Translations under genes and position numbers: made by a program
The notes under the pieces: model-generated
What the model saw: the letters and a program-made list of their open reading frames with translations, nothing else
Databases searched by the model: none
What the model was told of the DNA's origin: nothing
Part shown: positions 2,410 to 19,682 of the stretch, piece after piece
Layout of the letters: each line of letters starts with the position of its first letter
Position numbering within the stretch: position 1 is the stretch's first letter
DNA from: Flavobacterium sp. TR2
GTDB lineage: Bacteria > Bacteroidota > Bacteroidia > Flavobacteriales > Flavobacteriaceae
DNA: 64,000 bases
Reading direction: 5' to 3'
NCBI RefSeq assembly: GCF_025252405.1
Contig: NZ_CP104307.1
Location: forward strand, 1,488,001-1,552,000

Positions 2410-3273
2410 TTATCCTAAATAAGTTTTAAGGATTTTACTTCTAGAAGTGTGTTTCAATCTGCGGATTGCTTTTTCTTTAATCTGACGAACACGCTCACGA
2501 GTTAAGTCGAAAGTTTCTCCAATTTCTTCAAGAGTCATTGGGTGCTGATCGCCAAGACCAAAATACAAACGCACAACATCTGCCTCTCTTGGAGTTAATG
2601 TTTCTAATGAACGCTCAATTTCAGTACGAAGAGATTCGTGAATTAATTCTCTATCTGGATTTGGAGATTCTCCAGAACGCAATACGTCGTAAAGGTTAGA
2701 ATCTTCTCCTTCAACAAGAGGAGCATCCATTGATAGGTGACGTCCAGAGTTTTTCATAGACTCTTTTACGTCGTTTACAGTCATGTCAAGTTCTTTTGCA
2801 ATTTCCTCAGCAGAAGGCGGACGCTCGTTAGATTGCTCTAATAAAGCATACATTTTGTTGATTTTATTGATAGAACCAATTTTATTTAATGGTAAACGTA
2901 CAATACGAGATTGTTCAGCTAAAGCTTGAAGAATCGATTGACGAATCCACCATACAGCGTAAGAAATGAATTTAAAACCACGAGTTTCATCAAAACGTTG
3001 AGCCGCTTTAATTAAACCTAAGTTTCCTTCATTAATTAAATCCGGAAGAGTTAATCCTTGATTTTGATATTGTTTAGCCACAGATACTACGAAACGTAGG
3101 TTGGCTTTTGTTAGTTTTTCTAAAGCTCTTTGATCACCAGCCTTTATTCTTTGTGCTAATTCTACCTCTTCATCAGCGGTAATTAGGTCAACTTTTCCAA
3201 TTTCTTGTAGATATTTATCTAACGATGCAGTTTCACGATTAGTTACCTGCTTGGTGATTTTAAGTTGTCTCAT
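2410..3273 (-). CDS. rpoD: Primary RNA polymerase sigma factor RpoD/SigA
   Basis: The 287-residue housekeeping sigma factor. Region 1.2 is near the N-terminus ([15 protein letters not shown]). Region 2 carries [28 protein letters not shown] and the -10-recognising [15 protein letters not shown]. Region 3 follows, and region 4 holds the helix-turn-helix [23 protein letters not shown]. Region 1.1 is absent, as is standard in Bacteroidota, whose primary sigma factor recognises TTG/TAnnTTTG promoters; such promoters appear elsewhere in the window. Monocistronic by context, with a terminator-like hairpin downstream. Confidence 0.96.
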
Positions 3274-3391
3274 GTTGTTGTCTCCCTATTTTTAAAGTGT
3301 ACAAATGGTTATACGTATAGAGTATCGAAAAAGTTACAAAAAATTATTTTATTTTTTTTTAGAATTTTCATTTTTAATTGTATAAAATAGC

Positions 3392-3425
3392 AAAAGCCCT
3401 GATTAACAACTCAATCAAGGCTTTT
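3392..3425 (-). terminator. Terminator at the end of module copy 1
   Basis: AAAAGCCCTGATT pairs with AATCAAGGCTTTT (one mismatch) around an 8-nt loop, immediately after the last gene of the first four-gene module. Confidence 0.75.
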
Positions 3426-3447
3426 GTCGGCTTTATTTTTTATGTAA

Positions 3448-5238
3448 TTATTTTACCGTAATATTTTTTGAAACGTATACAGGATGCCCATTTTCAGTAA
3501 AACCTTCTAGGACAACTTCAAAATTTCCTTTGATATCAGAAGTGTAAAAAGATAAATTTTCTTCCTTTGCGTCTAGTTTGATATCTGGTTTCCATAACAA
3601 TTGGTATCTGTAATCAGGAATTCTTTGCAATTTGTTTCCAGCTGAATAATCTGGGTTGTTGTATACTTTTTCAGAATTAGGGCGCTGGATTTCCATTGTT
3701 TGTAGGTACTTCTTCGCATAATTTTCAGAAAACTCATTGTTTTTAGTTTCAAAACTAATTAATCCTCCATACAGATTTGGACCATACACGTAAGGTTCTG
3801 TTATTAAGCTTACCCTGTTAACATTGGCCATGTTGTATTCAAAAAGATCACTTGGATCTTGAATTAGAAGTCCATCAACAATTACCAATGGCGGACCATA
3901 TAATTCTAAATCTTTTTGATTGTTTCTTATATGAAGCTGATATTTGCCGTTGTTCTTTCTGTAATAAAGCTCCACAATGACTTCAACGATATTTTCTTTT
4001 AAAGTTGGGAATCGAGTGTAATCGTCTAAAACGTATGATTTTTCAACCGTAGTAAAAAAAGGATTCATAACAGCTTCTGTTACCAAGCTATCTTTTTTAA
4101 TCTGATAGTAAGCATTTTGAATCTGGCTTGCTGTAGATCTTTCTTCAATATCGTTTTTTAATTCTGGCGATAAATTCAGTTTCGACGTGAATTGCAATGA
4201 AGAAGCGTCAAATTTTGGAAATGGGTCTAAATTGATAGTGTAGTCATTTCGGTTTTCATCAATTACCTGAAGTATTGCATTTGGGAAATTTGGAAATTGA
4301 TCCAATAAAAAGGCAAATTTTCCCTGAGCATTTGTTTTCACAATTTTTAAAACATATTCTTTCCCTGGCAGTGATAATGCAATCGATTTGTTGGCGATGT
4401 CACGATTGTTTTTTGAAGTTAGATTTCCTGTGATTAATTCAGATCTAATTTCTGGAACATAATTTAAACTGTTCGGAGTATTAACGTAGTTCTCAGTAGT
4501 TTTTTTGGCAAACTCTGATGCTGTTAATTGTTTTAGTGTCGGAATCTGATCTGTTTTTCGAATAGAAACAGAATAGTTTCCTTTTTCGATTGTTTCGGTC
4601 AAATACTTTAATTTTAAGTTGACTTTTTCTCTTGTGTAATAACTTTCCTTATCAAATTCAAAATCGATTCTTTTATCATTTGCAGCGTTGTAATTTGAAG
4701 TTTGAATTGCAGTATTCGATTTGGCTGGATTAGTAATATCAAATGTGATATTTTCATTCTGCTCTTGAGTCTGAAATGGGTTGATGATAAAAATATCAAT
4801 TTCATACTTTTGAGAATTGACATTGTTTAGCATCCATTTCGTATACGCTACAATTTTATAATTTCCTGTTTTTAAAGTTGTAGGAATAAAGTAGTCTCCA
4901 TTTCCAATTCCTTTATCCAAGTATATTTTGTTTTTTTGAAGCGATTTTTTTTCGCTGTCAATCAATTCAACGTAAGCAATTTTGCTTATTAAGCTAGTTG
5001 TATTGTTTAACGGATTTAGACAATACAATTTGAAATATAATGTCTCACCAGTCAAAAAAGTTGTTGTATTTGAATGGATAAAAACGGTTTCCTGAGCTGT
5101 AATATTAGGCAATGAATTTTTGTTTTGTAAGCTCTGGGCAAAAGTAAATTCGATTTGAATAAACAAAAACATCAAAAAAAGCAATTGCTTAATTCTAATT
5201 GAAATATTATTCTGGCTATGTATAGAAAGGTGTTTCAT
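3448..5238 (-). CDS. Secreted MG2-like plus receptor-plug-like protein (module copy 1, gene 4)
   Basis: No specific function recognised. From the ATG at 5238 it has 596 residues with a signal peptide ending FTFAQ. The N-terminal third (TTTFLTGETLYFKLYCLN, then GNGDYFIPTTLKTGNYKIVAYT) resembles a macroglobulin MG2-type beta-sandwich of Bacteroidota surface proteins. Towards the C-terminus, LVIVDGLLIQDP followed by VYGPNLYGGLISFETKN resembles a TonB-receptor plug, yet no beta-barrel follows; the end is a short KGNFEVVLEGF beta domain. It is the last gene of the operon, 17 nt after the DUF4249 gene. A TTG at 5266-5268 is an alternative start matching the TTG used by copy 2. Function inferred only: a surface partner of the receptor. 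Confidence 0.72.
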   Translation of the reverse strand: MKHLSIHSQNNISIRIKQLLFLMFLFIQIEFTFAQSLQNKNSLPNITAQETVFIHSNTTTFLTGETLYFKLYCLNPLNNTTSLISKIAYVELIDSEKKSLQKNKIYLDKGIGNGDYFIPTTLKTGNYKIVAYTKWMLNNVNSQKYEIDIFIINPFQTQEQNENITFDITNPAKSNTAIQTSNYNAANDKRIDFEFDKESYYTREKVNLKLKYLTETIEKGNYSVSIRKTDQIPTLKQLTASEFAKKTTENYVNTPNSLNYVPEIRSELITGNLTSKNNRDIANKSIALSLPGKEYVLKIVKTNAQGKFAFLLDQFPNFPNAILQVIDENRNDYTINLDPFPKFDASSLQFTSKLNLSPELKNDIEERSTASQIQNAYYQIKKDSLVTEAVMNPFFTTVEKSYVLDDYTRFPTLKENIVEVIVELYYRKNNGKYQLHIRNNQKDLELYGPPLVIVDGLLIQDPSDLFEYNMANVNRVSLITEPYVYGPNLYGGLISFETKNNEFSENYAKKYLQTMEIQRPNSEKVYNNPDYSAGNKLQRIPDYRYQLLWKPDIKLDAKEENLSFYTSDIKGNFEVVLEGFTENGHPVYVSKNITVK

Positions 5239-5255
5239 GAATTTTTTAAAAAAGA

Positions 5256-6485
5256 TTAATCTACCCAAAAAGGAGGAACAATATTAGAAGAAAATGATGT
5301 GCAATCTCCACAAGCTGGTTTTACCATTCCGTAATTACCATTATAATCAGTTGATACAAAAACCAATTCTTTTGACCTAATTGCTCCGCGCAGCTGTATT
5401 CCGCTGCAAGGAGGAAGACCTTCGCAATCTACAAATTCTTTTACTGTACAGTCACTTTCATAATAAGGAGGTAAAGGCTCTTTTGGAAACAAGTCTGCAT
5501 AATTAAAGAAGATTCTTTCTGAAGAGACAGAAGAAACTTCAAAAAAACCAATAACCTTTTCAGATGGATTTTCTACAGATTTTATGTTTCCGTAAAAGAA
5601 TCCAGGCTGTTTTGGAGATAGAATTCCGCCTGATGTCGATAAATCTTTCAAGGTTTTGTAATAAGTGTATGCGGCTAGATTTTGAACATACTGTTTTACG
5701 AAGATTGAATAGCGATGAGAAATGATATAGTTTTGGTTGCTAATAAAACGTACAGGAAAATGCACGCGATCTTCGCTAAGGCTGTTTGTGTTATGCAAAA
5801 TAATATCGCTTGATTTTTTAGTAGAAAAACAGGTTCTGGTTTCTCGGTTTCTCAGTCTTAGCACGATGTCTTCACGTGCAGGAGAACCTGGAAAATCTTG
5901 ATCTGGGTTTGCAGGAATTGCGGGAATGCTAACCATCACAGTTTCTTGGCTACTCCATACTGGTGCAAGAATTTTGTAAGTTTCGGTGTATTCGTAACGA
6001 TAGTATTTTGAAGTATTAGTTGGCTCAAAACTGTTTACATTAATTTGAACTCCTCTTTGTCCGTTTACAGTTTCGGCTGTAGCAGTTACATTATCAATTT
6101 TCGTTTCAGTTGTCAAAACCTGTTCGTCAGACGTATAGTTTTTGCCTTCTCTTGTCTTAATTTTTAATTGGTACTTTCTTCCAGGTTCTGCTTTAAAAGG
6201 GGTTATAGAAGAGTAGATCGTATCTTTTTCCTCAAATTGGTATTCGTTGCCTTTATCGTCAGTAACAAAGACATTTGCTCCTTTTTCAAGCCTTGGGCCG
6301 CTTTCTTCAAGCTGATAAACTTGCGAAAGTCTTATGGTTTGATTTTTAAGTTCGTTTGTTATAGTTCCCTCAACAACAAGGGCGCTTTCAAAATCGGTAT
6401 TTTGAAAAACATATTGCTCCGTACAGCTGCTAATAGTAGCTGATAGAAGTAATAGTAATGATATTTTATATAGATATTTTTTCAT
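5256..6485 (-). CDS. DUF4249 lipoprotein (module copy 1, gene 3)
   Basis: A 409-residue DUF4249 protein. The start is the ATG at 6485, which gives a lipoprotein signal MKKYLYKISLLLLL with lipobox ATISSC (Cys21), then TEQYVFQNTDFE. The first domain reads as an Ig-like/carboxypeptidase-regulatory sandwich (VVEGTITNELKNQTIRLSQV, GANVFVTDDKGNEY). The C-terminus has the family signature CGDCTSFSSN ending PPFWVD. DUF4249 lipoproteins commonly accompany STN/carboxypeptidase-domain TonB receptors; function is unknown, and a SusD-like substrate-capturing or lid role is an inference. It begins 4 nt after the receptor stop, so it is translationally linked. Confidence 0.88.
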   Translation of the reverse strand: MKKYLYKISLLLLLSATISSCTEQYVFQNTDFESALVVEGTITNELKNQTIRLSQVYQLEESGPRLEKGANVFVTDDKGNEYQFEEKDTIYSSITPFKAEPGRKYQLKIKTREGKNYTSDEQVLTTETKIDNVTATAETVNGQRGVQINVNSFEPTNTSKYYRYEYTETYKILAPVWSSQETVMVSIPAIPANPDQDFPGSPAREDIVLRLRNRETRTCFSTKKSSDIILHNTNSLSEDRVHFPVRFISNQNYIISHRYSIFVKQYVQNLAAYTYYKTLKDLSTSGGILSPKQPGFFYGNIKSVENPSEKVIGFFEVSSVSSERIFFNYADLFPKEPLPPYYESDCTVKEFVDCEGLPPCSGIQLRGAIRSKELVFVSTDYNGNYGMVKPACGDCTSFSSNIVPPFWVD

Positions 6486-6489
6486 GATT

Positions 6490-9273
6490 TTAAAACTTGA
6501 AATTATAGGTAATACTTGGAATTGGAATTGAGAAAATAGATGTTTTGTACGCTTTGATTTGTCCTTCTTTCGTAACAAAGAATACAGAATACGGATTGTT
6601 GCGTCCTAAAACATTATAAACTGAAATATTCCAAAAACTATGAGCTAATTTTTTTATTTTATGATTTCCTTCAATGTTCAAACCAATATCAAGTCTGAAA
6701 TAATCTGGAATTCTAAACTTGTTGCGGTCGCTATATACTGTATACTGTTCGTTTCCGTAGTCATATCTTCCAATCGGATAGGTAATTGGTCTTCCCGTTT
6801 GATAGATAAAGTTACTAGAAAAACTATAACGTTTTGTAATTCTGTAGTTTAAAACAGCACTGAAGTCGTGTGGCTTGTCAAAATTAGAGGCAAAATATTT
6901 TCCGTCATTTACCTTTTCCTGCTGAAATTGGCTGTCAAGTTTTATTAATGATCTTGAATACGTATAGCCAAGCCATCCGTTTAACTTTCCAACCTGTTTT
7001 TTAATTAAAAATTCTACGCCGTACGCTTTTCCTTCTCCTTGTAACAGTTCGGTTTCAATATTCTCATTAAGCAGTAATTCTGCTCCAACTTTGTAATCTA
7101 GAATGTTTTTAGATCTTTTATAATATCCTTCTAAACTAAGTTCAACGTCGCCATTTTTTAAGTTTTTATAGAAGCCTAAAGACACTTGTTGAGCGCTTTC
7201 TGGTTTAACATTCAAATCTGACAGTTTCCAAATATCGGTTGGAGACTGTGTGGTGTTGTTAGATAATAAATGAATGTATTGATATGTTTTGTCATAGCTT
7301 GCGCGTACAGAAAAATCGTCTGTAAGGAAATATCTCGCGGCAAGCCTTGGCTCTAGCCCGCCATATCTTTTAATTACTTCATTATTGCCATACGTTTTTG
7401 TTTCAATTACCGTGGCATCGCTTATAGGCTGATTGTCTTCGTAAATTCGCTGATCAGATTTACCTAAGGCAGCAAAAGTAGAATAGCGCAAACCGAAATC
7501 CAGAAGGAATTTATCACTTATTTTAAAATTGTCGCCAATATATGCGGCAGATTCTAAACCTTTTTCTGTTTCAACATCAATTGGAATCAGTGTAGATTGC
7601 GGATTTTTTGGATTTAAATACCCTGGATCGACAGCATATAATTTTGTTGAAAGACCATAGCTGATTTTGTGTTTATTGCTATACAGGTAATTCATTTTCA
7701 GCATTGCCTGAGTCTCATTGATTTTGTAGCCAAAATCAAAATTATTTACTCCTTCAGACTGGTAATCAATGTTAAATTTGTATTCGCTATTTGTAACAAT
7801 CAGCGAACCTTTGTTTTTTTCATTAAAAGTATGATTCCATTTTAGCGTTGCTAAACGATTGCTGTATTTGTACAAAGAATCTGAAGAGACGCTAAATTTA
7901 TCGTGACTGTAATATAAGGTAGACTCAATATCATTATTAGCGTTTATTTTATGATTGTATTTTAGGATTAAATCATAAAACGAAGCTTGGCTATTTTTTA
8001 AATTTTCGTCATCTAGACTTTTTAAAATATAATCTGAATATGTTGCTCTTCCTCCTGCAATTAAACTAGATTTTCCTTTTACAATTGGAGTTGAGAGCAT
8101 TAAATTGCTGGTAACTGGGCCAATACCGCCTTCGCCTTGAAATTCGTTTACATTTCCGCTTTTTGATGAGATGTCAAAAACAGATGATAATCTTCCTCCA
8201 AATTCGGCAGGAATACTTCCTTTGTAAATGTCTACTTTTTTTGTTGTATAAGGATTTAGTGCTGTAAAAAAACCAAAGAAATGCGACGGATTGTACAAAG
8301 TAGCATGATCTAGCAAAAATAAATTTTGATCCTCTTTACCACCTCTAACGTTAAATCCTGCAGAGCCTTCTCCTGCGCTTTTTATTCCAGGCATAGTGAG
8401 GGCAACTTTAAGGATATCACGTTCTCCCAGAACTAAAGGAACATTTTTAATTCCTTCAGAATCAATAGTTGTTACGCCTGTTATGGCAGATTTTGCACTT
8501 TTGCTTTTATTGGTTTTGATAAGCACTTCATCAAGCTGGTTGATGTTGTCTGTCAACGAAAGATTTAATGCGCCGTCATTATAAACCATTATGTTTTTGG
8601 TTACCTTGTTGTAGGAAAAACTTTCTGTCTCAATAACGTTTAGCCCTCCAGGAACTTGCAGGCTATAGTATCCTTTTTTATCCGTTACGGCTGAGAATTC
8701 AGAATTAGGAATTTTTACAACTATATTGGCAAGGCCAGAATTGTTTTTTCCGCCCTTTATAAATCCAGATAATGTATACGTAGATTTCTTTTTTTGGTTT
8801 TTGACTTCTTTACCAATAAGGACAAGATCTCGAATATTTTTGTTTGGATTTCGAGAGTTTGTCTTTTTTATCGAGTCGTACTGCTGATAAAATATAGGCG
8901 TAATCTGCCCGTTTTCGTCTCTTTCAATCGGGATGCCAAAGTAATCGTCAGCTAATTGATTGTAAATAATGCTGTTATTGGTTACTATAACTTTGTTTTC
9001 AGAAATATAAAAGTTAAAGCTTGTGTTCTGAAAAACGTCTTCAAGAACTTCGCCGATTTTAACTTCTTTAAATTGTTTAGTTATAGAAACGCTATCGTTT
9101 TCAAACCATTTTTCATCAAAATAAAATTTGTAATAGGATACTTTTTCAATGTCCTGTATAGCAGTTTTTATATTTGCATTCTTAAATTCAACCGTTATTT
9201 TGTCGCTAATTACTTGGGAGTATATAATTTGTTGAAAGGATAGTAAAAATAGAATAAGAGTAATTTTTTTCAT
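6490..9273 (-). CDS. TonB-dependent receptor with STN and carboxypeptidase-like domains (module copy 1, gene 2)
   Basis: A 927-residue outer-membrane receptor. Order: signal peptide (1-20, ending IYSQ); STN domain (about 21-105, ITVEFKNANIKTAIQDIEK); linker; carboxypeptidase regulatory-like domain (about 165-250, YTLSGFIKGGKN to LQVPGGLNVIETES); plug (about 262-375, with FNVRGGKEDQNLFLLD and PAEFGGRLSSVFDI); then a 22-strand-type barrel ending in the aromatic TYNFKF. An STN domain usually signals to a FecR-type anti-sigma factor, but no sigma/anti-sigma pair is nearby. The substrate is unknown. Its start abuts the stop of the preceding small gene. Closely related along its length to the receptor at 13158-15920. 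Confidence 0.93.
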   Translation of the reverse strand: MKKITLILFLLSFQQIIYSQVISDKITVEFKNANIKTAIQDIEKVSYYKFYFDEKWFENDSVSITKQFKEVKIGEVLEDVFQNTSFNFYISENKVIVTNNSIIYNQLADDYFGIPIERDENGQITPIFYQQYDSIKKTNSRNPNKNIRDLVLIGKEVKNQKKKSTYTLSGFIKGGKNNSGLANIVVKIPNSEFSAVTDKKGYYSLQVPGGLNVIETESFSYNKVTKNIMVYNDGALNLSLTDNINQLDEVLIKTNKSKSAKSAITGVTTIDSEGIKNVPLVLGERDILKVALTMPGIKSAGEGSAGFNVRGGKEDQNLFLLDHATLYNPSHFFGFFTALNPYTTKKVDIYKGSIPAEFGGRLSSVFDISSKSGNVNEFQGEGGIGPVTSNLMLSTPIVKGKSSLIAGGRATYSDYILKSLDDENLKNSQASFYDLILKYNHKINANNDIESTLYYSHDKFSVSSDSLYKYSNRLATLKWNHTFNEKNKGSLIVTNSEYKFNIDYQSEGVNNFDFGYKINETQAMLKMNYLYSNKHKISYGLSTKLYAVDPGYLNPKNPQSTLIPIDVETEKGLESAAYIGDNFKISDKFLLDFGLRYSTFAALGKSDQRIYEDNQPISDATVIETKTYGNNEVIKRYGGLEPRLAARYFLTDDFSVRASYDKTYQYIHLLSNNTTQSPTDIWKLSDLNVKPESAQQVSLGFYKNLKNGDVELSLEGYYKRSKNILDYKVGAELLLNENIETELLQGEGKAYGVEFLIKKQVGKLNGWLGYTYSRSLIKLDSQFQQEKVNDGKYFASNFDKPHDFSAVLNYRITKRYSFSSNFIYQTGRPITYPIGRYDYGNEQYTVYSDRNKFRIPDYFRLDIGLNIEGNHKIKKLAHSFWNISVYNVLGRNNPYSVFFVTKEGQIKAYKTSIFSIPIPSITYNFKF

Positions 9274-10059
9274 TTAATTAGAACTTTTTTTTAAAAGACC
9301 ATTGATTTGTTTCGTTAGATTTTCCATGAATTGAGGCTTGTTGGAGCGTTCTAATTTTTTATCGGTATTATAAATATTATTTATTTCTTTTTTAATATTT
9401 GGAAAAATTTTCTTGAAATCCTTCTCTGTTTCAACCTTATAGAAGTAGTTGTTGTATTTTAAAACGTAGTCGATTTTATAAATGAAATTATAATAGATTA
9501 CATCTGCCTGAAGGGACTTTACTTTTTCTTTAGTATGTTTGATGTAAAGAGAAACATTGTCTCCAATGTATGTTTCCTCATAAAATCCTTTTATGATAGA
9601 AGGGAATTTTATCGACTCTTCTTTAAGGTTGACAAATTTTTTGTTCTTTATGAAAAAATAATCGACTTTTTCGGTAATTAGGTTTATGGGTAAATTTTCT
9701 GAAGAGCCATTCTGCTTATAAATGACCTGATCAAGAAGAATGTCATATTTAAGATTGACATTAGAATAAATCTGGCCCTCAAAACTGATATCGCCAATAT
9801 TAAACTCTTCTGTGTAATATCTGTTTTTTCCAGCTATCGGACGAAATGGTTCGCTGTGAACGATTCCATTATTGATATTTAAATTGTCTTTTCCGACGGT
9901 TTCGTCGAAGTAATCGTATAGTGAGGATTTTTCAGCAGATTGTGATTGCGCATACGATATGTTTAACAGGCTTGCAAATAGCGATAGGGAAATCGCTTTT
10001 TTTTTGTAATTTTTCAAAGGAAATGTGATTTTTTTTGTTTTTGGATTGATTGGTTCCAA
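9274..10059 (-). CDS. Small secreted protein, first gene of module copy 1
   Basis: Unrecognised family, homologous by eye to the 267-residue protein at 15940-16743: shared DYFDETVGK/NYFDKAIGK, NLNINNG/ILNINNG, an (I/L)YxNVxxKYDI segment, a YFxIxxKKFVN motif, GFxEExY(I/L)G, and a basic C-terminal stretch (KKIFPNIKKEI). It has an exported N-terminus ending SYAQ. The longest frame begins at a TTG (10057-10059), but a promoter-like TACTTTTG overlaps that codon, so the TTG at 10012-10014, giving LKNYKKKAISLSLF, is also plausible. No ATG lies upstream of the hydrophobic segment. It is transcribed first, directly abutting the receptor gene. Role unknown; an accessory periplasmic factor of the receptor is inferred from linkage alone. 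Confidence 0.72.
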   Translation of the reverse strand: MEPINPKTKKITFPLKNYKKKAISLSLFASLLNISYAQSQSAEKSSLYDYFDETVGKDNLNINNGIVHSEPFRPIAGKNRYYTEEFNIGDISFEGQIYSNVNLKYDILLDQVIYKQNGSSENLPINLITEKVDYFFIKNKKFVNLKEESIKFPSIIKGFYEETYIGDNVSLYIKHTKEKVKSLQADVIYYNFIYKIDYVLKYNNYFYKVETEKDFKKIFPNIKKEINNIYNTDKKLERSNKPQFMENLTKQINGLLKKSSN

Positions 10060-10081
10060 AAGTATTAAAAAAATGTTACAA
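10057..10081 (-). promoter_or_regulatory. Possible promoter of module copy 1
   Basis: On the minus strand a perfect -7 element TACTTTTG (10057-10064) is preceded by TTG (10079-10081). The spacer is only 14 nt, shorter than the usual 17-23, so the -33 assignment is doubtful. Confidence 0.35.
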
Positions 10082-10276
10082 AAATCACGTAATATTGTTA
10101 AAATGTAATAAAAATGCTATGGAATTTGTTTTAAAATATATTCATGGTATATTTTTTAACCAAAATTTCGGCTTAAATGACATTTGTAGCCATTTTTTAG
10201 ATTTAACGATTAAATCTTACAAAATAATTTTTCTTTAAATTGAAAAGCCCAATTCGATTAAGTATTGCAGTTTTTT

Positions 10277-10303
10277 ATAAATAAACCTTTAGCAAACTGA
10301 GAT
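10277..10303. repeat. 27-nt boundary repeat, left copy
   Basis: Begins ATAAATAAACCTTTAG and matches 16974-17000 at 25 of 27 positions. It lies 218 nt upstream of module copy 1, just as its partner lies 231 nt upstream of copy 2, so it marks the upstream edge of the duplicated unit. The gap 10060-10302 holds no gene. Confidence 0.8.
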
Positions 10304-11979
10304 TATTCCGTTTTGAATGTTTTATAAAAATGAACATACTTGCCTTCATTAGTAATTCCTTCTAAGATGATCTCATAATCTCCGGAAATATCAGAGGTAT
10401 AAAAAGGGATTTTCATGTCACTATTTTCAAAAATTATATTGGGTTTCCAAAGCAGTTGATATCTATAGTCGGGAATTCTGTTAAGCGTATTGGAGGTTTC
10501 GTATTTTGGTTCAAAATAATCTTTTGCAGGTTCTGGTCTTAAGATAGATGTTTTGAAAATATTTTTATCAGTATAAACAGTGGCAAAATCGTTATTTTTT
10601 GTAATGATACTCACAATTCCGTTAAATATTTTTGGCCCATAGCAGTATGGTCTGTTAACAACGCTAATGCTTTGAATTTGATAGGCATTGTAATTTAACA
10701 AGGCATTAATATCCTGAATTTGTAATCCGTCAACCAAAACCAGACAAGGTTCAGGAGATTGTATGATGTTGTATTTGGAATCGCTTAAGTATAGTGCTGG
10801 AATCTGATTGTAATCTTTAAAATTAAGTTCGATAACAATTTCTATTATTGTTTCTTTAAACGTTCTAAATCTTTCGAAATCATCAAGATTATATTTTTTT
10901 TCGGTAGGCTGAAAAAAGAAATCTGTACGAGCGGCTTCAATAATGCTGTCTTTTTTCTCAGAAAAATAAACGTTTTCTATCTGAGTTGCCAATGAGCGCT
11001 CCTGAATCGCTTTTAAATTTTTACCAGAAATAGATGTCTTATTGGAGAACATTAAATTTGACAAATCAGGACTTGGTGTTTTGTCTATTGCAATAGCGTA
11101 ATTTTCTTTATCAGGTTCTGATAACTGCACATAACAGTCTGATGTACTGGTTTGTTTGTCGATTAGAAAAACGAATTTTCCGCTGTTATCTGTTTTAGTT
11201 GTTTTGAAAATGAAATTTTTTCCCGGAACAGATAATGTAACTATTTTAGAATCTAAATTAGAGTTTGCGGCTTTCGGAGTAATATATCCGGTTATAATTT
11301 CGCCTCTTGTTTCTGGAAGCACTTTTATTTCTTGTTTTAAATTTAAATCAGTGCTAATAGTTTCGCTATTTGTGTTTGTAGACATAAAATCTATTTTTCT
11401 GATATTTAAAAAGTAATTTCCCCTGTCCAGTATTTTTGGTATTACAAGAGTAGCTTTTTCTCTTTTAGAATATTTTTCTTTATTAAGGCTCAAAAGAATG
11501 TTGTTGGATAGGTTTTTATAAACATCAGGTTTTTTAGAAGTCGTGTCAATTGTCATACTAATGCGTTCCTGAAATGGGTTTATGATAGTAAAGTCTTTTT
11601 CGAAAAAGTTATTTTGACTATTGTTTAACATCCAGCTCGTATATGCTATAAGTTTATAGTTTCCGGTTGGCAGTGTCGTTGGGATAAAATAATCGCCAGA
11701 TCCAATTCCGTTTTTCAGACTGATTTTATTTTTAAATACACTTTCTTTTTTATTGTTAATTATTTCTATATAGGCAATTTCACTGATGTCAGAAAACACA
11801 TTCGTTTTATTCAAACAGAATAATTGATAGTATAATGTTTCTCCGGTTAAGACTGTCGAGGTATTAGTTTTAACTAATAATGATTCTGTGCCCAAAACAA
11901 TATTATTTTGAGCACTGCTTTTATAAGCAAAATTTACTAATAGCAGCAGAAAAGCGATTTTGATGTTTAATTTTCCCAA
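10303..11979 (-). CDS. Secreted MG2-like plus receptor-plug-like protein (module copy 2, gene 4)
   Basis: A 558-residue paralogue of the protein at 3448-5238. It shares the macroglobulin-like N-terminus (TSTVLTGETLYYQLFCLN, GSGDYFIPTTLPTGNYKLIAYT), the plug-like LVLVDGLQIQD with YCYGPKIFNGIVSIITKN, and the C-terminal NRIPDYRYQLLWKP and YTSDISGDYEIILEG motifs. The signal peptide ends KSSAQ. The start is a TTG at 11977-11979, since no ATG or GTG lies near the signal peptide. That TTG overlaps the last 13 nt of the DUF4249 gene, implying translational coupling. Function unknown; no barrel is present despite the plug-like segment. Confidence 0.75.
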   Translation of the reverse strand: MGKLNIKIAFLLLLVNFAYKSSAQNNIVLGTESLLVKTNTSTVLTGETLYYQLFCLNKTNVFSDISEIAYIEIINNKKESVFKNKISLKNGIGSGDYFIPTTLPTGNYKLIAYTSWMLNNSQNNFFEKDFTIINPFQERISMTIDTTSKKPDVYKNLSNNILLSLNKEKYSKREKATLVIPKILDRGNYFLNIRKIDFMSTNTNSETISTDLNLKQEIKVLPETRGEIITGYITPKAANSNLDSKIVTLSVPGKNFIFKTTKTDNSGKFVFLIDKQTSTSDCYVQLSEPDKENYAIAIDKTPSPDLSNLMFSNKTSISGKNLKAIQERSLATQIENVYFSEKKDSIIEAARTDFFFQPTEKKYNLDDFERFRTFKETIIEIVIELNFKDYNQIPALYLSDSKYNIIQSPEPCLVLVDGLQIQDINALLNYNAYQIQSISVVNRPYCYGPKIFNGIVSIITKNNDFATVYTDKNIFKTSILRPEPAKDYFEPKYETSNTLNRIPDYRYQLLWKPNIIFENSDMKIPFYTSDISGDYEIILEGITNEGKYVHFYKTFKTE

Positions 11980-13139
11980 AATGAAGGTATTACGTTAGAA
12001 GAAAATGATGTGCAATCTCCGCATACTTTTTCAACCATGTAGAATCCTGTTGGTGTCATTCCGGGACCATCTCCAATATATTCATGTGTTTTAAGTATGT
12101 CATAATTATTACTTTGTATTTCATCAAAGCCATAGAATCTGGCATCGCAAGTTGTGAAATACTCGGTTGGTTTTTCTGAAGGAAAAAAATCTTTGAAACT
12201 AAAAAAGATTCTTTTTTTAGAGACAGATGCAACTTCAAAATAGCCAACAACTTTTTCGCGAAAATCTGTTGTCGATTTTATGTTTCCCACAACATATCCA
12301 GGCTGATTTGGAGATAATAATTCTCCTGAATCAATTATTTTTTTTGATTTATAATAATAATCGTAAGCAGATTGGTTCTGAGTAAATTGAGAAACCAAAA
12401 TGCTGTACCGATTTGTTAGCATATAGTCTGTATCTTTAATGAAACGAACAGCGTAGTTTACACGATCTTCAGCTAAATCGACTGTATTAGTTTGTCTTAT
12501 TCCTGTAGAATGTTTTGTTGTATAGCAAACTTTAATATTTGTTTCAACAGGAACTTTCTGGTAAATGTAGTGGCCGTTTTGTTGCACTAATTTGATGCGT
12601 TCATCGATCGCATATCGAGATATTATTTTATAAGTTTCGTCATATTCATAGCGATAATATTTGGAAGTATTGGTAGGGTCAAAACTTTTCACGTTTACCT
12701 GAACGCCCCTAACTCCATCCTTGTTTGCGATTGCTGTTTCCAGATCAATAGTGTTTTGCGTAGGCAAAGCTTCAGTGGAAGAAATATATGATTTTCCGGA
12801 ACTGGTTGTTATTTTTAATTGATAGGTCTTATTTGGTTCAGCTTTAAATTCATCTGCAGAAACATACTTTCCATCTTTTTCATCAAACGCAAACACATTT
12901 CCATCGCTATCAACAACAGTAACATTAGCTCCAGATTCGATTATTTTTACGGTATCATTAACGGGTCTTGTTCGCGAAATATTTATTTCCTGAAATTTTA
13001 ATTCATTCGTTAATGTGGCTTCAACAGTCAGAGCATCTTCAAAATCTTGATCCTGATATACGTATTGTTCCGTGCAACTTGACAAAACAGCAAATGCAAA
13101 AAAGGTCAACGTCATTTTTTTGATTATGGATAAATTCAT
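11967..13139 (-). CDS. DUF4249 lipoprotein (module copy 2, gene 3)
   Basis: A 390-residue DUF4249 protein and paralogue of the one at 5256-6485. The lipoprotein signal has lipobox AVLSSC (Cys22), and the next residues TEQYVYQDQDFE nearly match copy 1. It keeps the middle motif NTSKYYRYEYDETYKI and the C-terminal CGDCTSFSSN with SFWEN end. It starts 18 nt after the receptor stop and overlaps the next gene. The loop-rich centre differs from copy 1, which may reflect different ligands. Expected to be an outer-membrane lipoprotein; biochemical role not established for the family. Confidence 0.88.
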   Translation of the reverse strand: MNLSIIKKMTLTFFAFAVLSSCTEQYVYQDQDFEDALTVEATLTNELKFQEINISRTRPVNDTVKIIESGANVTVVDSDGNVFAFDEKDGKYVSADEFKAEPNKTYQLKITTSSGKSYISSTEALPTQNTIDLETAIANKDGVRGVQVNVKSFDPTNTSKYYRYEYDETYKIISRYAIDERIKLVQQNGHYIYQKVPVETNIKVCYTTKHSTGIRQTNTVDLAEDRVNYAVRFIKDTDYMLTNRYSILVSQFTQNQSAYDYYYKSKKIIDSGELLSPNQPGYVVGNIKSTTDFREKVVGYFEVASVSKKRIFFSFKDFFPSEKPTEYFTTCDARFYGFDEIQSNNYDILKTHEYIGDGPGMTPTGFYMVEKVCGDCTSFSSNVIPSFWEN

Positions 13140-13157
13140 ATTGATAAGATAAATGAA

Positions 13158-15920
13158 TTAAAATTTGATGTTATATGTTATTGTCGGAATCGGAACAGAA
13201 AAAATAGATGTTTTATAAGCTTTGATTTTTCTGTCTTCAGTAACAAAATAAACATTATAAGGGTTGTTTCTTCCCAGAACATTGTAGACTGAAAGATTCC
13301 AGAAACTATGTGCGAGTTTTTTTATTTTGTGATTTCCTTCAAAATTGAGACCAATATCCAATCTGTAATAATCTGGAATTCTATACTGGTTGCGATTACT
13401 GTATAAGGTAAATTGCTCTCCTGTCAAATCATAAGATCCGATTGGAAAAGTGACGGGCCTGCCGGTTTGGTAAACAAAATTCGTCGACAAACTGTATCTC
13501 TTTGTGAATTTATAGTTCAAAATAGCGCTAAAATCATGTGGCTTGTCATAATTGGTAGGGAAATAATCTCCGTTGTTTATTTTTTCTGCATCAAACCTGC
13601 TGTCAAGTTTTATAAGGGCTCTCGAATACGTATAGCTTAACCATCCATTAAAATTCCCTTTTTCTTTCTTGATTAAAAATTCAACTCCATAAGCTTTTCC
13701 TTCACCTTGAAGAAGCTCGGTTTCTATATTTTGATTCAAGAATAATTCAGCGCCGACTTTATAGTCTAAAATGTTTTTAGAGCGTTTATAATAACCTTCG
13801 ACGCTTAGTTCTAACGATTTGTCAATTATATTTTTGAAAAGCCCCAATGAGAATTGATTGGAAGATTGCGGCTCAGTATTTAAATCTGAAAGTTTCCATA
13901 CATCCATTGGAGATTGCGTGGTATTTGTTGACAGCAAATGCATATATTGATAGGTTCTGTCAAAACTTGCTTTTACGGATAAGTCCGGAAGTATAAAATA
14001 ACGGGCTGAAACTCTAGGTTCAAAACCGCTATAAGTCTTTACGGACTCATTGTTGGTGTAGGTCTTGGCATCGATAACAGTTCTGTCAGATTTAGGACGG
14101 TCATCCTGATAAATGTTTTGCGTAGAAGGGCCAAGTGCAGCATAAAAAGAATAACGTAAACCGATATTAATTAAAAATTGATCATTGACTTTGTAATTTT
14201 CGGTAAAAAATAAAGCCGATTCTAAAGCTTTTTCCTTTTCAAGTGTAATATTTTTAATTAGAGAGTTGTCTCCTGTTGGCTTCAGAAAACCAGGATTAAC
14301 ATTGTATAACTTGCTGCTAATGCCATAATTAAACAAATGCTTTTCATTCAGATTGTACCTCATTTTAAAAACAAACTGAGTTTCATTGATTTTATAGCCG
14401 TAATCAAATGATTTTTCAGGTTGAGAATCATAGTCGATGTTGAACTTATACTGGCTATTCGTAACAATTAATGAAGATTTGTTTTTTGTGCTGAAATCAT
14501 GATCCCATTTTACGGTTGCCAATAAGTTGCTGTATTTGTAGATGGAATCTGAATTGATGCTGTATTTGTCATGACTATAATATACAGAGGTTTCCAATTC
14601 GTCTTTTTGGGTAATTTTGTGATTGTATTTTAAAAGCAAATCATAAAAAGAAGCCTGACTATTGTCTAATTCGGGATCTTTAATAGCTTTCAGAATCCAG
14701 TCAGAATAACTGGCTCTGCCGCCAAATAATAAGCTCGATTTTCCTTTTACGATCGGAATTTCAAGTGTAACATTGCTCATTACAGGGCCAATGCCGGCTT
14801 CCCCAGAAACTTTTTCGGCATTTCCGCTTTTAGATTTAATATCAAAAACAGAAGAAAGGCGCCCTCCAAATTCGGCAGGAATGCTTCCTTTGTAAATATC
14901 GGCTGTTTTAGTAGTAAATGGATTTACCGAAGAAAAGAAGCCCAAAAAGTGAGAAGGATTGTATAAAGAAGCATTGTCTAATAAAAATAAGTTTTGATCG
15001 TCTTTTCCTCCACGCACATTAAAACCGGCAGAGCCTTCTCCTGCTGTTTTTATCCCCGGAAGAGTTGTGGCAACTTTAAAAATATCTCTTTCGCCCAAAA
15101 TCAGAGGCACATTTTTAATGTTTTCGATATCAATGCTTGTGAGGCCAGTAACTGCTGAGGTTACACTTCTAGTTTTTTTGTTTTCGATGACAACTTCTTT
15201 AAGAGCATTTACGTTTTCGTCTAAATTAAAATCAACTTTTCCATTGTTGTAAAGTACAATCTTTTTAGTCTTTGGCTGATGACTGATAGATTGCGTTTCG
15301 ATTATATTAATGCCTGCTGGAACTCTAAAACTGTAATAGCCATTTGCATCAGTGGTTGTGCTTATGTCTTTGTCTTTTACTTTAATGGTGATATTGTATT
15401 CTGGTTTTCCTGAAACCCTGTCTTTAATGTAGCCAGATAGGGTATAGGTCTGAGCCGCATTTATTAAAGATTGTTTTCCAAGAGAAATAATAGAGTCCGA
15501 ATCTTTCTTAGAATCATTTAAATATTGCTTATTATAGATAGGGACAATTTGTGAATTAGCGGCCTTAATACTGCTTTTGTCGTCAGTGTTTTCAAAATAA
15601 CTTTCAGTTATGTTGTTTGAGATTAAAAGACCATCACTTAGAATAATATTGTTGTTATCAATAATATAATTTATGGTTGTGTTAACCAAAATAGCGTCTA
15701 AAACTACTGAAATAGAGGTGTTCTTGAATTCGCCAGAAATAAGCTCATTGTTTGATAGCCATTGGTTCTTAAAATAAAAATGGAAAGAAGTGTTTTTTTC
15801 GAGTATTTCAATAGCTTTTCTTCGCGTTACATTTGAATATTCTATAGAAACATTTTTTTCCTGAGAAAAAAGAAAGATTGGCAGTAACAAAAATAAACAG
15901 AAGATAAATTGTTTTTTCAT
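13158..15920 (-). CDS. TonB-dependent receptor with STN and carboxypeptidase-like domains (module copy 2, gene 2)
   Basis: A 920-residue paralogue of the receptor at 6490-9273 with the same architecture: signal peptide ending FLFSQ, STN domain (about 21-100, VSIEYSNVTRRKAIEILEK), carboxypeptidase-like domain (about 160-245, YTLSGYIKDRVSGKPEYN), plug (about 258-370, FNVRGGKDDQNLFLLDNA and PAEFGGRLSSVFDIKSKSGN) and barrel ending TYNIKF. Plug and C-terminal barrel strands are very close to copy 1, including SFWNLSVYNVLGRNNPY; the STN domain and linker differ most. That is the pattern expected if signalling or ligand specificity diverged after duplication. No FecI/FecR-like genes adjoin it. Confidence 0.93.
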   Translation of the reverse strand: MKKQFIFCLFLLLPIFLFSQEKNVSIEYSNVTRRKAIEILEKNTSFHFYFKNQWLSNNELISGEFKNTSISVVLDAILVNTTINYIIDNNNIILSDGLLISNNITESYFENTDDKSSIKAANSQIVPIYNKQYLNDSKKDSDSIISLGKQSLINAAQTYTLSGYIKDRVSGKPEYNITIKVKDKDISTTTDANGYYSFRVPAGINIIETQSISHQPKTKKIVLYNNGKVDFNLDENVNALKEVVIENKKTRSVTSAVTGLTSIDIENIKNVPLILGERDIFKVATTLPGIKTAGEGSAGFNVRGGKDDQNLFLLDNASLYNPSHFLGFFSSVNPFTTKTADIYKGSIPAEFGGRLSSVFDIKSKSGNAEKVSGEAGIGPVMSNVTLEIPIVKGKSSLLFGGRASYSDWILKAIKDPELDNSQASFYDLLLKYNHKITQKDELETSVYYSHDKYSINSDSIYKYSNLLATVKWDHDFSTKNKSSLIVTNSQYKFNIDYDSQPEKSFDYGYKINETQFVFKMRYNLNEKHLFNYGISSKLYNVNPGFLKPTGDNSLIKNITLEKEKALESALFFTENYKVNDQFLINIGLRYSFYAALGPSTQNIYQDDRPKSDRTVIDAKTYTNNESVKTYSGFEPRVSARYFILPDLSVKASFDRTYQYMHLLSTNTTQSPMDVWKLSDLNTEPQSSNQFSLGLFKNIIDKSLELSVEGYYKRSKNILDYKVGAELFLNQNIETELLQGEGKAYGVEFLIKKEKGNFNGWLSYTYSRALIKLDSRFDAEKINNGDYFPTNYDKPHDFSAILNYKFTKRYSLSTNFVYQTGRPVTFPIGSYDLTGEQFTLYSNRNQYRIPDYYRLDIGLNFEGNHKIKKLAHSFWNLSVYNVLGRNNPYNVYFVTEDRKIKAYKTSIFSVPIPTITYNIKF

Positions 15921-15939
15921 TTAGATTTACGAATAGAGC

Positions 15940-16743
15940 TTATAAATTGTTATCAATAAATTTTATTAAATCTGCTTTGAACTGATACCTGTTTGTTTCT
16001 TCTAGAAGTCTGTTTTTTTTGTAATATTCTTTTATTTCTTTTTTTAGTTCAGGAAATATGTTGAGAATTTCTTTTTGCGTGTTTACAGGTGAAAATTTCG
16101 AATTGTAAAAAAGCTGATAATCACTATATTCTTTGAATTCGGAATATAAAGTATTTTCAATAATGACTTCTTTAGCAGTTTTAAAATACTTAATGTATAA
16201 GGAGATATTTTTGCCTAAGTATTTTTCTTCAAAAAATCCTGTAACGCCTTTAGGATATTTATATTTATTGTCAATATTGACAAATTTTTTATCATCAATT
16301 AAAAAATAATCTGTTCTTTCATTTATGAGAGTTATTCCGAATGCATTATTATTCTCAAATGATTTGACAAGCTCGTCTTTGTATATGTCGTACTTTATTA
16401 AAACATTTTCGTACAATTGATTGTCATAAAAAACAGATCCGTTAACAAAGTTTTTATTTAAATAGTAGTTGTGGCTATTTTTTAAATTGTAAGGATCAAT
16501 ATGGATTTTGCCATTATTGATATTTAAAATTGCTTTGCCAATTGCTTTGTCAAAATAATTGGAAACTTCTTTTTTGGCATTAGTTTGAGAAAAACTGTTA
16601 ATTGAAAGGAGCAGGATGAAAATTACTGTTGAGTAATTTGTATTCTTTAATAATTGATTTTTACAGTTTAGCTTGAATTTAAAAGAGATAATAATAAATA
16701 GTATTGTTTTAATTCTTAACCTTTCAATATCCTTTCTCATCAA
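15940..16743 (-). CDS. Small secreted protein, first gene of module copy 2
   Basis: A 267-residue paralogue of the protein at 9274-10059: NYFDKAIGKAILNINNG, QLYENVLIKYDIYKDE, RTDYFLIDDKKFVN, GFFEEKYLGKNISLYIKY and a C-terminal charged helix (FPELKKEIKEYYKKNRLLEE). The mature part follows INSFSQ. The upstream 35 residues are basic and long for a signal peptide, but no other ATG, GTG or TTG lies between the ATG at 16741-16743 and the hydrophobic core; the ATG at 16738-16740 is an alternative. It leads the operon, 19 nt before the receptor. Family and function not recognised. Confidence 0.7.
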   Translation of the reverse strand: MMRKDIERLRIKTILFIIISFKFKLNCKNQLLKNTNYSTVIFILLLSINSFSQTNAKKEVSNYFDKAIGKAILNINNGKIHIDPYNLKNSHNYYLNKNFVNGSVFYDNQLYENVLIKYDIYKDELVKSFENNNAFGITLINERTDYFLIDDKKFVNIDNKYKYPKGVTGFFEEKYLGKNISLYIKYFKTAKEVIIENTLYSEFKEYSDYQLFYNSKFSPVNTQKEILNIFPELKKEIKEYYKKNRLLEETNRYQFKADLIKFIDNNL

Positions 16744-16811
16744 TATTTTAGTTTTTTATGTGGCTATTTTCCATATAAAACTATGTTAATGAGGTTTTGT
16801 TAAAAAATAAA

Positions 16812-16846
16812 TTAAACCAACAGCATCGATTTTTAAACCAACAGCA
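16812..16846 (-). promoter_or_regulatory. Pair of 14-bp direct repeats, 21-bp period, upstream of module copy 2
   Basis: TTAAACCAACAGCA occurs exactly twice, at 16812-16825 and 16833-16846, 21 bp apart (two helical turns), about 70-100 nt upstream of the first gene of copy 2. Such phased direct repeats suit a dimeric regulator binding one DNA face. They are absent upstream of copy 1. Confidence 0.5.
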
Positions 16847-16937
16847 CTATTTAATCAATAATGTGTTTGCTGAAAACGTTGTAGCTTAATATTTTAACCG
16901 TTTGATTTTTAGAATGGAAAGTAAATGCAAAAATCGA

Positions 16938-16971
16938 AAAACCCCGTTTCATAATCATGAAACGGGGTTTT
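16938..16971. terminator. Strong terminator of pnp
   Basis: A perfect 15-bp stem, AAAACCCCGTTTCAT with ATGAAACGGGGTTTT, around a 4-nt loop AATC. It lies 34 nt beyond the pnp stop and insulates it from module copy 2. Confidence 0.92.
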
Positions 16972-16973
16972 CT

Positions 16974-17000
16974 ATAAATAAACCTTTAGTAAACTAAGAT
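16974..17000. repeat. 27-nt boundary repeat, right copy
   Basis: Begins ATAAATAAACCTTTAG and matches 10277-10303 at 25 of 27 positions. It lies between the pnp stop and the pnp terminator, at the upstream edge of module copy 2. Confidence 0.8.
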
Positions 17001-17004
17001 CTGA

Positions 17005-19149
17005 TTACTCTTTTTTATCCTCACGTGGAGGTCTTGGAACAAGTGCTTTTTTAGACACTTTTTCTTTTTTAGTTTTAGGGTCAACTCCTAGGTATTTCAC
17101 TTGGAAAACGTCTCCCATCTTAACTACGTCAGCAACGTTTTCTGTACGCTCCCAAGCCAGCTCAGATACGTGAAGCAATACTTCGTTTCCTGGTGCAGCA
17201 GTATATTCTACTACAGCTCCAAAATCAAGCATTTTGATTACTTTAACTTCGTAAGCCTCGCCAACTTGTGGTTTGAAAGTCAATGCATCGATTTTAGCCA
17301 ATACAGCTTTAATGCCATCTGGATCAGTTCCTAAGATTTCAACTACACCTTGCTCGTCCACTTCATTGATTACGATAGTAGTTCCAGTAGCTTTTTGTAA
17401 TTCTTGAATTACTTTTCCGCCAGGTCCGATTAACGCTCCAATAAAGTTTCCAGGGATAGTTCTGGTAATGATTTTTGGTGCATGAGCTTTAACTTCTGCT
17501 CTTGGCGCTGCGATAGTTTCAGTTAATTTTCCTAAAATATGCAAACGTCCGTCACGAGCTTGTGCTAAAGCTTGTTCCATAATGTCATAACGCAATCCTT
17601 CGATTTTGATATCCATTTGGCAAGCCGTGATACCATCAGCAGTTCCAGTTACTTTAAAGTCCATATCTCCTAAGTGATCTTCGTCTCCTAAAATATCAGA
17701 CAATACAGCAAATTTCTCACCATCAGTAATTAATCCCATAGCGATACCAGAAACTGGTTTTGTCATTTGCACACCAGCATCCATAAGAGCCATTGTTCCA
17801 GCGCAAACCGTTGCCATAGAAGAAGAACCGTTAGATTCTAGTACCTCAGAAACAACACGAATTGTGTAAGGGCAATCTGCAGGAATCATATTTTTAAGAG
17901 CTCTTTGAGCTAAGTTACCGTGACCAACTTCTCTTCTTGAAGTTCCTCTTAATGGTTTTGCTTCACCAGTAGAGAAAGGAGGGAAGTTATAGTGTAAGTA
18001 GAATTTTTCTTCACCTTGCTCAGATGGAGAATCGATTTGGTTAGCTTCTTTAGAAGTTCCTAAAGTTACAGTAGCCAAAGCTTGAGTTTCTCCACGAGTA
18101 AATAAAGAAGATCCGTGTACAGATGGCAAGTAATCAGTTTCGCACCAGATAGGTCTAATTTCTGTAGTTTTTCTACCGTCTAGACGGATTCCTTTTTCAA
18201 GAATTACGTTACGAACTGCTTCTTTGTTTGTTTTGTAGAAGTATTTTCCAACTAAACCTGCAAGGTCTGCATTTTCAGCATATTCTTCTTCAGTAAATAA
18301 AGCTTTTGCTTCTTCTTTTACTGCTGCAAATTTTTCGCCTCTTTCTGCTTTTCCAGAAGCTTCTTGAGCAATTGCGTAGCATTTGTCGTAAGCGGCAGTC
18401 TTTACTTTAGCGTAAACAGCCTCGTCTTCAACTTCACCTTCGTATGTTCTGTATTCTTGAGAGCTTAATTTTGCTCTTAATTTTTGCTGTGCAACAATTT
18501 GAACTTTAATAGCTTCGTGAGCAAATTTAATCGCTTCAACCATTTCGGCTTCAGAGATTTCTTTCATCTCACCTTCAACCATGGCAACAGAATCCATAGA
18601 AGCTCCAATCATCATATCGATATCAGATTTTTCTAATTCTTCTCTGCTTGGATTGATTACCAATTTCCCGTCGATACGCGCAACACGCACTTCAGAAATC
18701 AAGTTGTAAAATGGAATGTCAGAAACAGCTAATGCTGCAGATGCTGCTAAACCAGCTAATGCGTCTGGCATAACATTGTCATCGTGAGACATTAATTGAA
18801 TCATAACCTGAGTTTCAGCATGGTAATCGTCTGGGAAAAGCGGACGCAATACACGGTCTACTAATCTCATTGTTAATACTTCGCTGTCGCTAGGTCTAGC
18901 TTCTCTTTTGAAAAATCCTCCTGGGAAACGTCCTGCAGCAGCAAATTTTTCGCGGTAATCTACCGTTAATGGTAAAAAGTCAACACCTGGGTTAGATGTT
19001 CTTGCAGAAACTGCTGTTGCCAAAAGCATACAGTTTCCTAAACGTACAACAACTGAACCATCGGCTTGTTTTGCTAATTTACCAGTTTCGATTGAGATGC
19101 TTCTTCCATCTCCTAAATCGATAATTTCTTGTGAAACTTGTGGAATCAT
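17005..19149 (-). CDS. pnp: Polyribonucleotide nucleotidyltransferase (PNPase)
   Basis: Phosphorolytic 3'-5' exoribonuclease of RNA decay; 714 residues, normal for the family. Order: RNase PH domain 1 (from about residue 10, with [20 protein letters not shown]), alpha-helical linker, RNase PH domain 2 (about 310-540, with [16 protein letters not shown] and the active-site stretch [15 protein letters not shown]), KH domain with the GPGGK loop (about 560-620), and C-terminal S1 domain (about 630-700, ending [14 protein letters not shown]). Downstream of rpsO with a 179-nt leader, the same rpsO-pnp order as in many bacteria. The leader contains an unusual CA-rich looped hairpin. Confidence 0.97.
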
Positions 19150-19328: not shown

Positions 19329-19595
19329 TTATTTTCTGATATTCAATACTTTGATAATCTCACGATATCTGTTGATATCTTTCTTTTTCAAGTAGTCCAA
19401 CAAAGCTCTTCTTTTACCTACTAATAGTACAAGAGAACGCTCAGTGTTGTAATCGTGACGATTTTTTTTCAAGTGTTCAGTTAAGTGAGAAATTCTGTAA
19501 GTGAACAACGCGATTTGACCTTCAGCTTTTCCAGTGTTTTTTGCATCACCGTGTTGTGCGAAGATTTCTTCTTTCTTTTCTTTAGTTAAATACAT
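19329..19595 (-). CDS. rpsO: 30S ribosomal protein S15
   Basis: Primary 16S rRNA-binding protein of the small-subunit platform; 88 residues as usual. It shows the family core: TGKAEGQIALFTYRISHLTEHLK, HDYNTERSLVLLVGKRRALLDYL (read in parts) and the terminal RYREIIKVLNIRK. The ATG start at 19593-19595 is normal for the family. A good promoter lies about 57 nt upstream and a terminator directly downstream, so it is probably transcribed alone or with read-through into pnp. Confidence 0.97.
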   Translation of the reverse strand: MYLTKEKKEEIFAQHGDAKNTGKAEGQIALFTYRISHLTEHLKKNRHDYNTERSLVLLVGKRRALLDYLKKKDINRYREIIKVLNIRK

Positions 19596-19651
19596 TCCAA
19601 TATTGTTTTAATGATTTTTATGTATGTCATACAACTTTTGTAAGACGGGTG

Positions 19652-19682
19652 CAAAATTAGATTAAAAAAACAGAAAAATCAA
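19652..19682 (-). promoter_or_regulatory. Bacteroidota-type promoter of rpsO
   Basis: Minus strand: TTG (19680-19682), 20-nt spacer, then TAATTTTG (19652-19659), a full match to TTG-N17..23-TAnnTTTG. About 57 nt before the rpsO start. Confidence 0.7.

Follow-up and report, generated by a model that had tools for sequence, protein, structure and literature searches.

The question raised by this locus is whether four genes that occur twice in succession act together as one outer-membrane machine. In the window (64,000 nucleotides of contig NZ_CP104307.1 of Flavobacterium sp. TR2, positions 1,488,001 to 1,552,000) the interval from pnp (17005-19149) to rpoD (2410-3273) contains two minus-strand modules of four genes each. 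Each module encodes a small secreted protein (G1), a TonB-dependent receptor (T), a DUF4249 lipoprotein (D) and an MG2/plug-like protein (M). The initial annotation had described two complete copies with the same strand, order and spacing, and all eight genes are indeed open minus-strand frames at its coordinates (Table 1). Gene order and tight spacing are alike in both modules: in the rpoD-side module the receptor ATG follows directly the stop codon of G1, and a 13-nt overlap of the M frame with the DUF4249 frame is possible in both copies (TTG starts).

Conservation of the four-gene unit

Scanning of contigs with an M alignment yielded 75 close loci (from the best 80 of 351 confirmed relatives), 72 of which are titled Flavobacterium. 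Together with the window they contain 93 modules with full-length M, and in all 77 of those with at least 1.5 kb of upstream sequence the order is G1, T, one to three D, M (one with T in two frames). The receptor gene lies in two frames in L019 and L034, the module being otherwise complete. The module is also carried by strain CI04 (L017) of the laboratory species Flavobacterium johnsoniae. A sample of the family (199 genomes, 198 genera) gave, apart from the window's own genome, 38 full-length M genes. The M-T unit has D next to it in all 38, and T is present in 36, the remaining two stretches beginning at a contig end. G1 was found in 21 of the 31 family modules with upstream room and is missing in 10; the core of the unit is therefore receptor-DUF4249-M. 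Beyond the family, all four genes are present in 12 of 12 loci (11 genomes of seven other families, chosen because they match M), one of them with M before D, and G1 scores 61 to 119 bits there. The closest named relatives of L183 belong to Spirosoma (order Cytophagales). Since the four-gene set recurs in several other Bacteroidota families, it looks like a real extension of the known nutrient-importer kind and not a chance grouping. The initial annotation had named rare co-occurrence of G1 and M with the receptor and DUF4249 genes elsewhere as an argument against a conserved unit; such rarity was not found. Two qualifications apply: G1 is absent from some modules, and the majority of genomes sampled at higher taxonomic levels gave no M match at the cut-off applied, as described below.

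An M match at 1e-40 was obtained in 14 of 196 genomes sampled order-wide and in 21 of 296 sampled phylum-wide, most genomes being without a match (the two samples overlap, and only 4 to 6 candidates were scored per genome); for the window's genus within these samples the count is 10 of 18. DUF4249 is commoner than the module, occurring in 154 of the 199 family genomes as compared with 34 containing full-length M (the latter counted by eye). The number of DUF4249 genes per module (n = 152, including cut modules and two double counts) is one in 107, two in 30, three in 8, four in 6 and five in 1. Three further DUF4249 genes stand beside receptors in the window's genome, and neither G1 nor M was found in the stretches around these three or around eight hand-picked DUF4249 loci of other genera. 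M relatives of 800 to 900 residues also exist without T and D (L154-L156).

Strong G1 matches (at least 182 bits) in the family genomes share a contig with the M of a module in 24 of 26 cases (by eye); the other two stand beside DUF4249 on contigs without M. The same genomes contain 27 weaker G1 matches of 25 to 54 bits (for example in G198, G078 and G073), some of them clustered by two or three away from M, and G1 may be part of a larger unnamed family.

The constant company of these genes could in principle reflect neighbourhood without joint function, preserved by linkage at one chromosomal spot. The fetched stretch contains pnp and/or rpoD for 74 of the 75 close loci (both for 47), and unrelated cassettes also occupy the pnp-rpoD site, as would be expected of mere linkage. 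Outside Flavobacterium the genes stay together, and neither pnp nor rpoD was found in the sequence fetched around them (0 of 40 family loci, 0 of 13 for L177-L189), and lateral spread of one fixed block would need to account for every case, which makes this explanation extremely improbable.

Domain content and proposed architecture

DUF4249 (PF14054) is recognized well above the Pfam cut-off in both lipoproteins (151.1 and 125.6 bits against 28.5; E-values 5.7e-44 and 3.6e-36). Plug (PF07715), barrel (PF00593) and CarbopepD_reg_2 exceed their cut-offs in both receptors. The N-terminal STN-like domain of the receptors scores below the cut-off (18.7 and 12.6 bits against 28.4), and FecR_C gives 17.7 bits in one copy. 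MG2 in M is also below the cut-off (23.1 and 14.1 bits against 32.8); the predicted structure of M matches alpha-2-macroglobulins in its MG-domain fold, and a part of M weakly resembles the carboxypeptidase-plug part of the receptor. The prediction for M is a scaffold of the alpha-2-macroglobulin type that is short and lacks the thioester motif: CxEQ was found in 0 of 152 M proteins. The best Pfam match of G1 is no better than E 0.29, and the AlphaFold2 model of the rpoD-side G1 gave no confident fold match. In a metagenomic protein (P0039) a receptor N-terminus is fused directly to the second half of M, either by deletion or as an assembly artefact. Among the NCBIfam matches of the window proteins up to E 0.1, none was to a type IX secretion system C-terminal sorting domain.

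We propose, with a probability of about one half for the wiring as a whole, that each module specifies a single outer-membrane importer, driven by TonB and built as a barrel with a lid. What the data show is gene content, gene order, domain content and co-inheritance; the position of the lid, the periplasmic location of M and G1, the contacts between the parts and the inward direction of transport are inferred. DUF4249 would be the surface lipoprotein lid over the receptor barrel, closing it from outside; its divergence is coupled to that of the barrel. M, which would be a truncated scaffold of the alpha-2-macroglobulin type that has a carboxypeptidase-plug-like segment but no barrel, and G1 would form a periplasmic subassembly docked on the STN-like and carboxypeptidase-like domains of the receptor, and would either take over the cargo or gate or read the receptor in place of FecR. 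Additional tandem DUF4249 genes may serve as alternative lids. Only tentatively can the modules be regarded as a class of TonB machine in its own right, in which a barrel-less receptor mimic, M, would sit with G1 under the receptor, M at the STN-like domain replacing FecR, and interchangeable DUF4249 lids would be coupled to one conserved pore.

Lid-type importers are a main route by which Bacteroidota take up large nutrients. SusCD, BtuBG and XusAB consist of a barrel and a surface lipoprotein lid (PMC13142918, PMC7618045, PMC10404256). The proposed barrel and lid would be shared with these systems; the module differs in the lid family, DUF4249, and in the extra M and G1. A SusCD system was considered and rejected: the lipoprotein matches DUF4249, and Pfam gave no SusD family for it up to E 1. 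The receptor-DUF4249 pair is already published: for BT2172-BT2173 of Bacteroides thetaiotaomicron, a TonB-dependent transporter and a DUF4249 protein, joint action was proposed and disruption of either had similar consequences (PMC11003636). The adjoining receptor and DUF4249 genes are common to both; the accessible part of that source mentions no M or G1 partner, whereas the module has both and may carry DUF4249 in tandem 2-5 times. In the literature searched, which does not cover most papers of subscription journals, DUF4249 is named in one paper, the four-gene set was found nowhere described, and nothing on an M-like protein (plug, MG2, macroglobulin) appeared as judged by titles. With M and G1, the latter lacking a Pfam family, the set brings two uncharacterised partners to a lid family that has been little studied.

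The macroglobulin-like fold raises the alternative that M traps proteases or bacteriocins and so guards the receptor. As compared with the bacterial alpha-2-macroglobulins of E. coli and Salmonella, M is short, has no thioester motif in any of the proteins mentioned above, and contains a carboxypeptidase-plug-like middle part seemingly outside the structural match, which stops before the thioester domain. Some bacterial alpha-2-macroglobulins are devoid of CxEQ as well. A trap is highly improbable on this evidence, with the fold as the point in its favour. Another alternative is that the receptor works outward and M and G1 handle an outgoing protein. A precedent exists in Oar, a TonB-dependent transporter needed for secretion of the protease PopC (PMC6434023). 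The receptor and DUF4249, however, belong to the pair proposed as transporter and lid. No recurring neighbour was recognized as cargo, though a gene that we take to be penicillin-acylase-like recurs 43-222 bp from the module in 6 of 40 family loci; export is quite improbable.

More weight has to be given to the possibility that the module is a sensor, in which the STN-like domain would relay ligand binding at DUF4249 and the barrel to M and G1, these replacing FecR/FecI, with transport secondary. The STN-like N-terminal domain, below the Pfam cut-off, recalls FecA/FecR/FecI-type receptors, and the initial annotation had remarked that the FecI/FecR pair expected of such a domain is absent nearby. 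This is correct for the window and general for the group. The window's genome has five FecR genes, none in the window and the nearest ~0.76 Mb from the module. With one FecR query from this genome (E 1e-4, fetched stretches) FecR was found in 0 of 75 close loci, in 0 of 40 family loci (a set that includes three with no module) and in 1 of 20 further module loci (L177, on the opposite strand just past M), as well as in 2 of 11 simple receptor-DUF4249 pairs. As far as one query shows, the STN-like domains of this receptor group are kept largely without neighbouring FecR. Yet a simple pair in the window's own genome (L209:2952-8147) has an ECF-sigma-like gene and a FecR gene immediately upstream. 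This contrast and the co-variation of M with the receptor STN region in close relatives speak for a sensor; the module, however, contains no inner-membrane protein and so no visible signal path to the cytoplasm, and the ECF sigma genes in 24 of 75 close loci belong mostly to a separate cassette absent from the window. We therefore regard a sensor as unlikely. The other signalling route that the initial annotation considered possible would fit the missing FecR and the same co-variation. The module is in any case a concrete candidate for the role of an STN-like domain where FecR is absent.

For the importer wiring, co-divergence of the parts (M with the STN region, DUF4249 with the barrel) lends support in close relatives, and less clearly in distant ones. 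Several observations weigh against it. Besides the modules missing G1, the M-STN value falls to 0.16 in 33 more distant modules, the interval including 0. DUF4249 and M co-vary at 0.22-0.27 in close relatives and at 0.11 in distant ones (interval including 0), a coupling not predicted by a lid outside and a scaffold inside; but these genes are neighbours. G1 gives 0.25 with the control Pnp. Inheritance as one block is by itself enough to make genes co-vary. The plug likeness of M is weak, and the whole-chain TM-score of M against macroglobulins is only ~0.24 of the query, only parts matching. Finally, the signal patterns are crude: 13 M and 7 G1 were called lipoproteins and 60 of 220 DUF4249 proteins were missed.

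History of the two copies

As the initial annotation had claimed, all four genes are paralogous pair by pair (identity 39% for G1, 60% for T, 44% for D and 41% for M). Within T the identity is 78% for the plug, 67% for the barrel, 43% for the carboxypeptidase-like domain and 29% for the STN-like domain. The tandem duplication of the initial annotation, if read as a recent local event, is not supported. In trees of the four proteins the pnp-side module is nearest to first modules of other species and not to the rpoD-side module: its D and M cluster with those of L006, L007, L022, L035, L070, L076 and L079 (support 1.0), and T and G1 with L079 and L070 (support 1.0), the remaining loci of that group being lost to the end of the fetched stretch. 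By these trees the two copies are old paralogues, the pnp-side copy stemming from an old separate module lineage.

The pnp 3' flank contains a 27-base piece of which the window has two copies, one following pnp and the other at the junction of the modules (against 0 of 100 shuffles). Behind pnp its 17-base core (up to 3 mismatches) was found in 41 of 51 cases; behind M the count is 1 of 95, namely the window's own. Upstream of the rpoD-side module the sequence can be aligned to the gap between pnp and the module in the single-module relatives L009, L020 and L045, including an apparent decayed pnp terminator, and L006 and L007 exhibit the same arrangement in a more decayed form. Most simply, the ancestor of these strains would have received a divergent module immediately behind pnp, recombination through pnp being one conceivable route. 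A less simple alternative would be an old in-place duplication with the flank retained only in the window. More than one M is present in 16 of 75 close loci. The surroundings of rpoD were viewed in eight genomes of the genus that gave no M match at 1e-40, and pnp directly adjoins rpoD in one of them (L200). These findings point to a fixed chromosomal site in Flavobacterium that gathers divergent modules and at which strains can be compared for copy number and partner specificity.

Features and neighbourhood of the pnp-rpoD site

Table 1. Coordinates of the module genes and flanking elements in the window.
Feature	Position	Strand	Basis or remark
G1, pnp-side copy	15940..16743	-	type I signal pattern; no Pfam family
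TonB-dependent receptor, pnp-side copy	13158..15920	-	STN-like, CarboxypepD_reg, plug, barrel
DUF4249 lipoprotein, pnp-side copy	11967..13139	-	Pfam profile
M, pnp-side copy	10303..11979	-	MG2/alpha-2-macroglobulin-like with plug-like segment
G1, rpoD-side copy	9274..10059	-	AlphaFold2 mean pLDDT 87
TonB-dependent receptor, rpoD-side copy	6490..9273	-	Pfam profiles
DUF4249 lipoprotein, rpoD-side copy	5256..6485	-	frame opens at 6578; likely ATG at 6485
M, rpoD-side copy	3448..5268	-	AlphaFold2 mean pLDDT 88
Strong terminator-like hairpin 3' of pnp	16937..16972	-	terminator scan
Strong terminator-like hairpin between last M and rpoD	3391..3426	-	terminator scan
pnp 3' flank, original position	16967..16993	-	repeat comparison
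pnp 3' flank, second copy, with apparent decayed pnp terminator, at junction of modules	10247..10296	-	repeat comparison

The coordinates of the pnp-side G1 are those of the longest frame, and its true start is probably internal. The rpoD-side M starts either at the TTG, which gives the overlap with DUF4249, or at an ATG at 5238. The minus-strand terminator scan gave no hit in the gap between the modules; both modules may therefore form one transcript.

The pnp-rpoD gap (window 2410-19149, L006-L080) is variable and has other contents besides the module. By reading of the genes, and not by search, these are an apparent XRE-type regulator (19 loci), an apparent kinase/LytTR pair accompanied by a small gene (15 loci) and, in some loci, a cassette of ECF-sigma and anti-sigma-like genes. 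In other genera a gene that is presumably YifB/ComM-like stands beside the module in 9 loci (examples of this and of the penicillin-acylase-like neighbour are L140, L149, L136, L123 and others). L201 and L205 (G374) contain two complete tandem rpoD genes, 99 and 93% identical to that of the window. The Rfam S15-Flavobacteria ribosomal protein leader is located at window 19593-19659 on the minus strand, upstream of rpsO.
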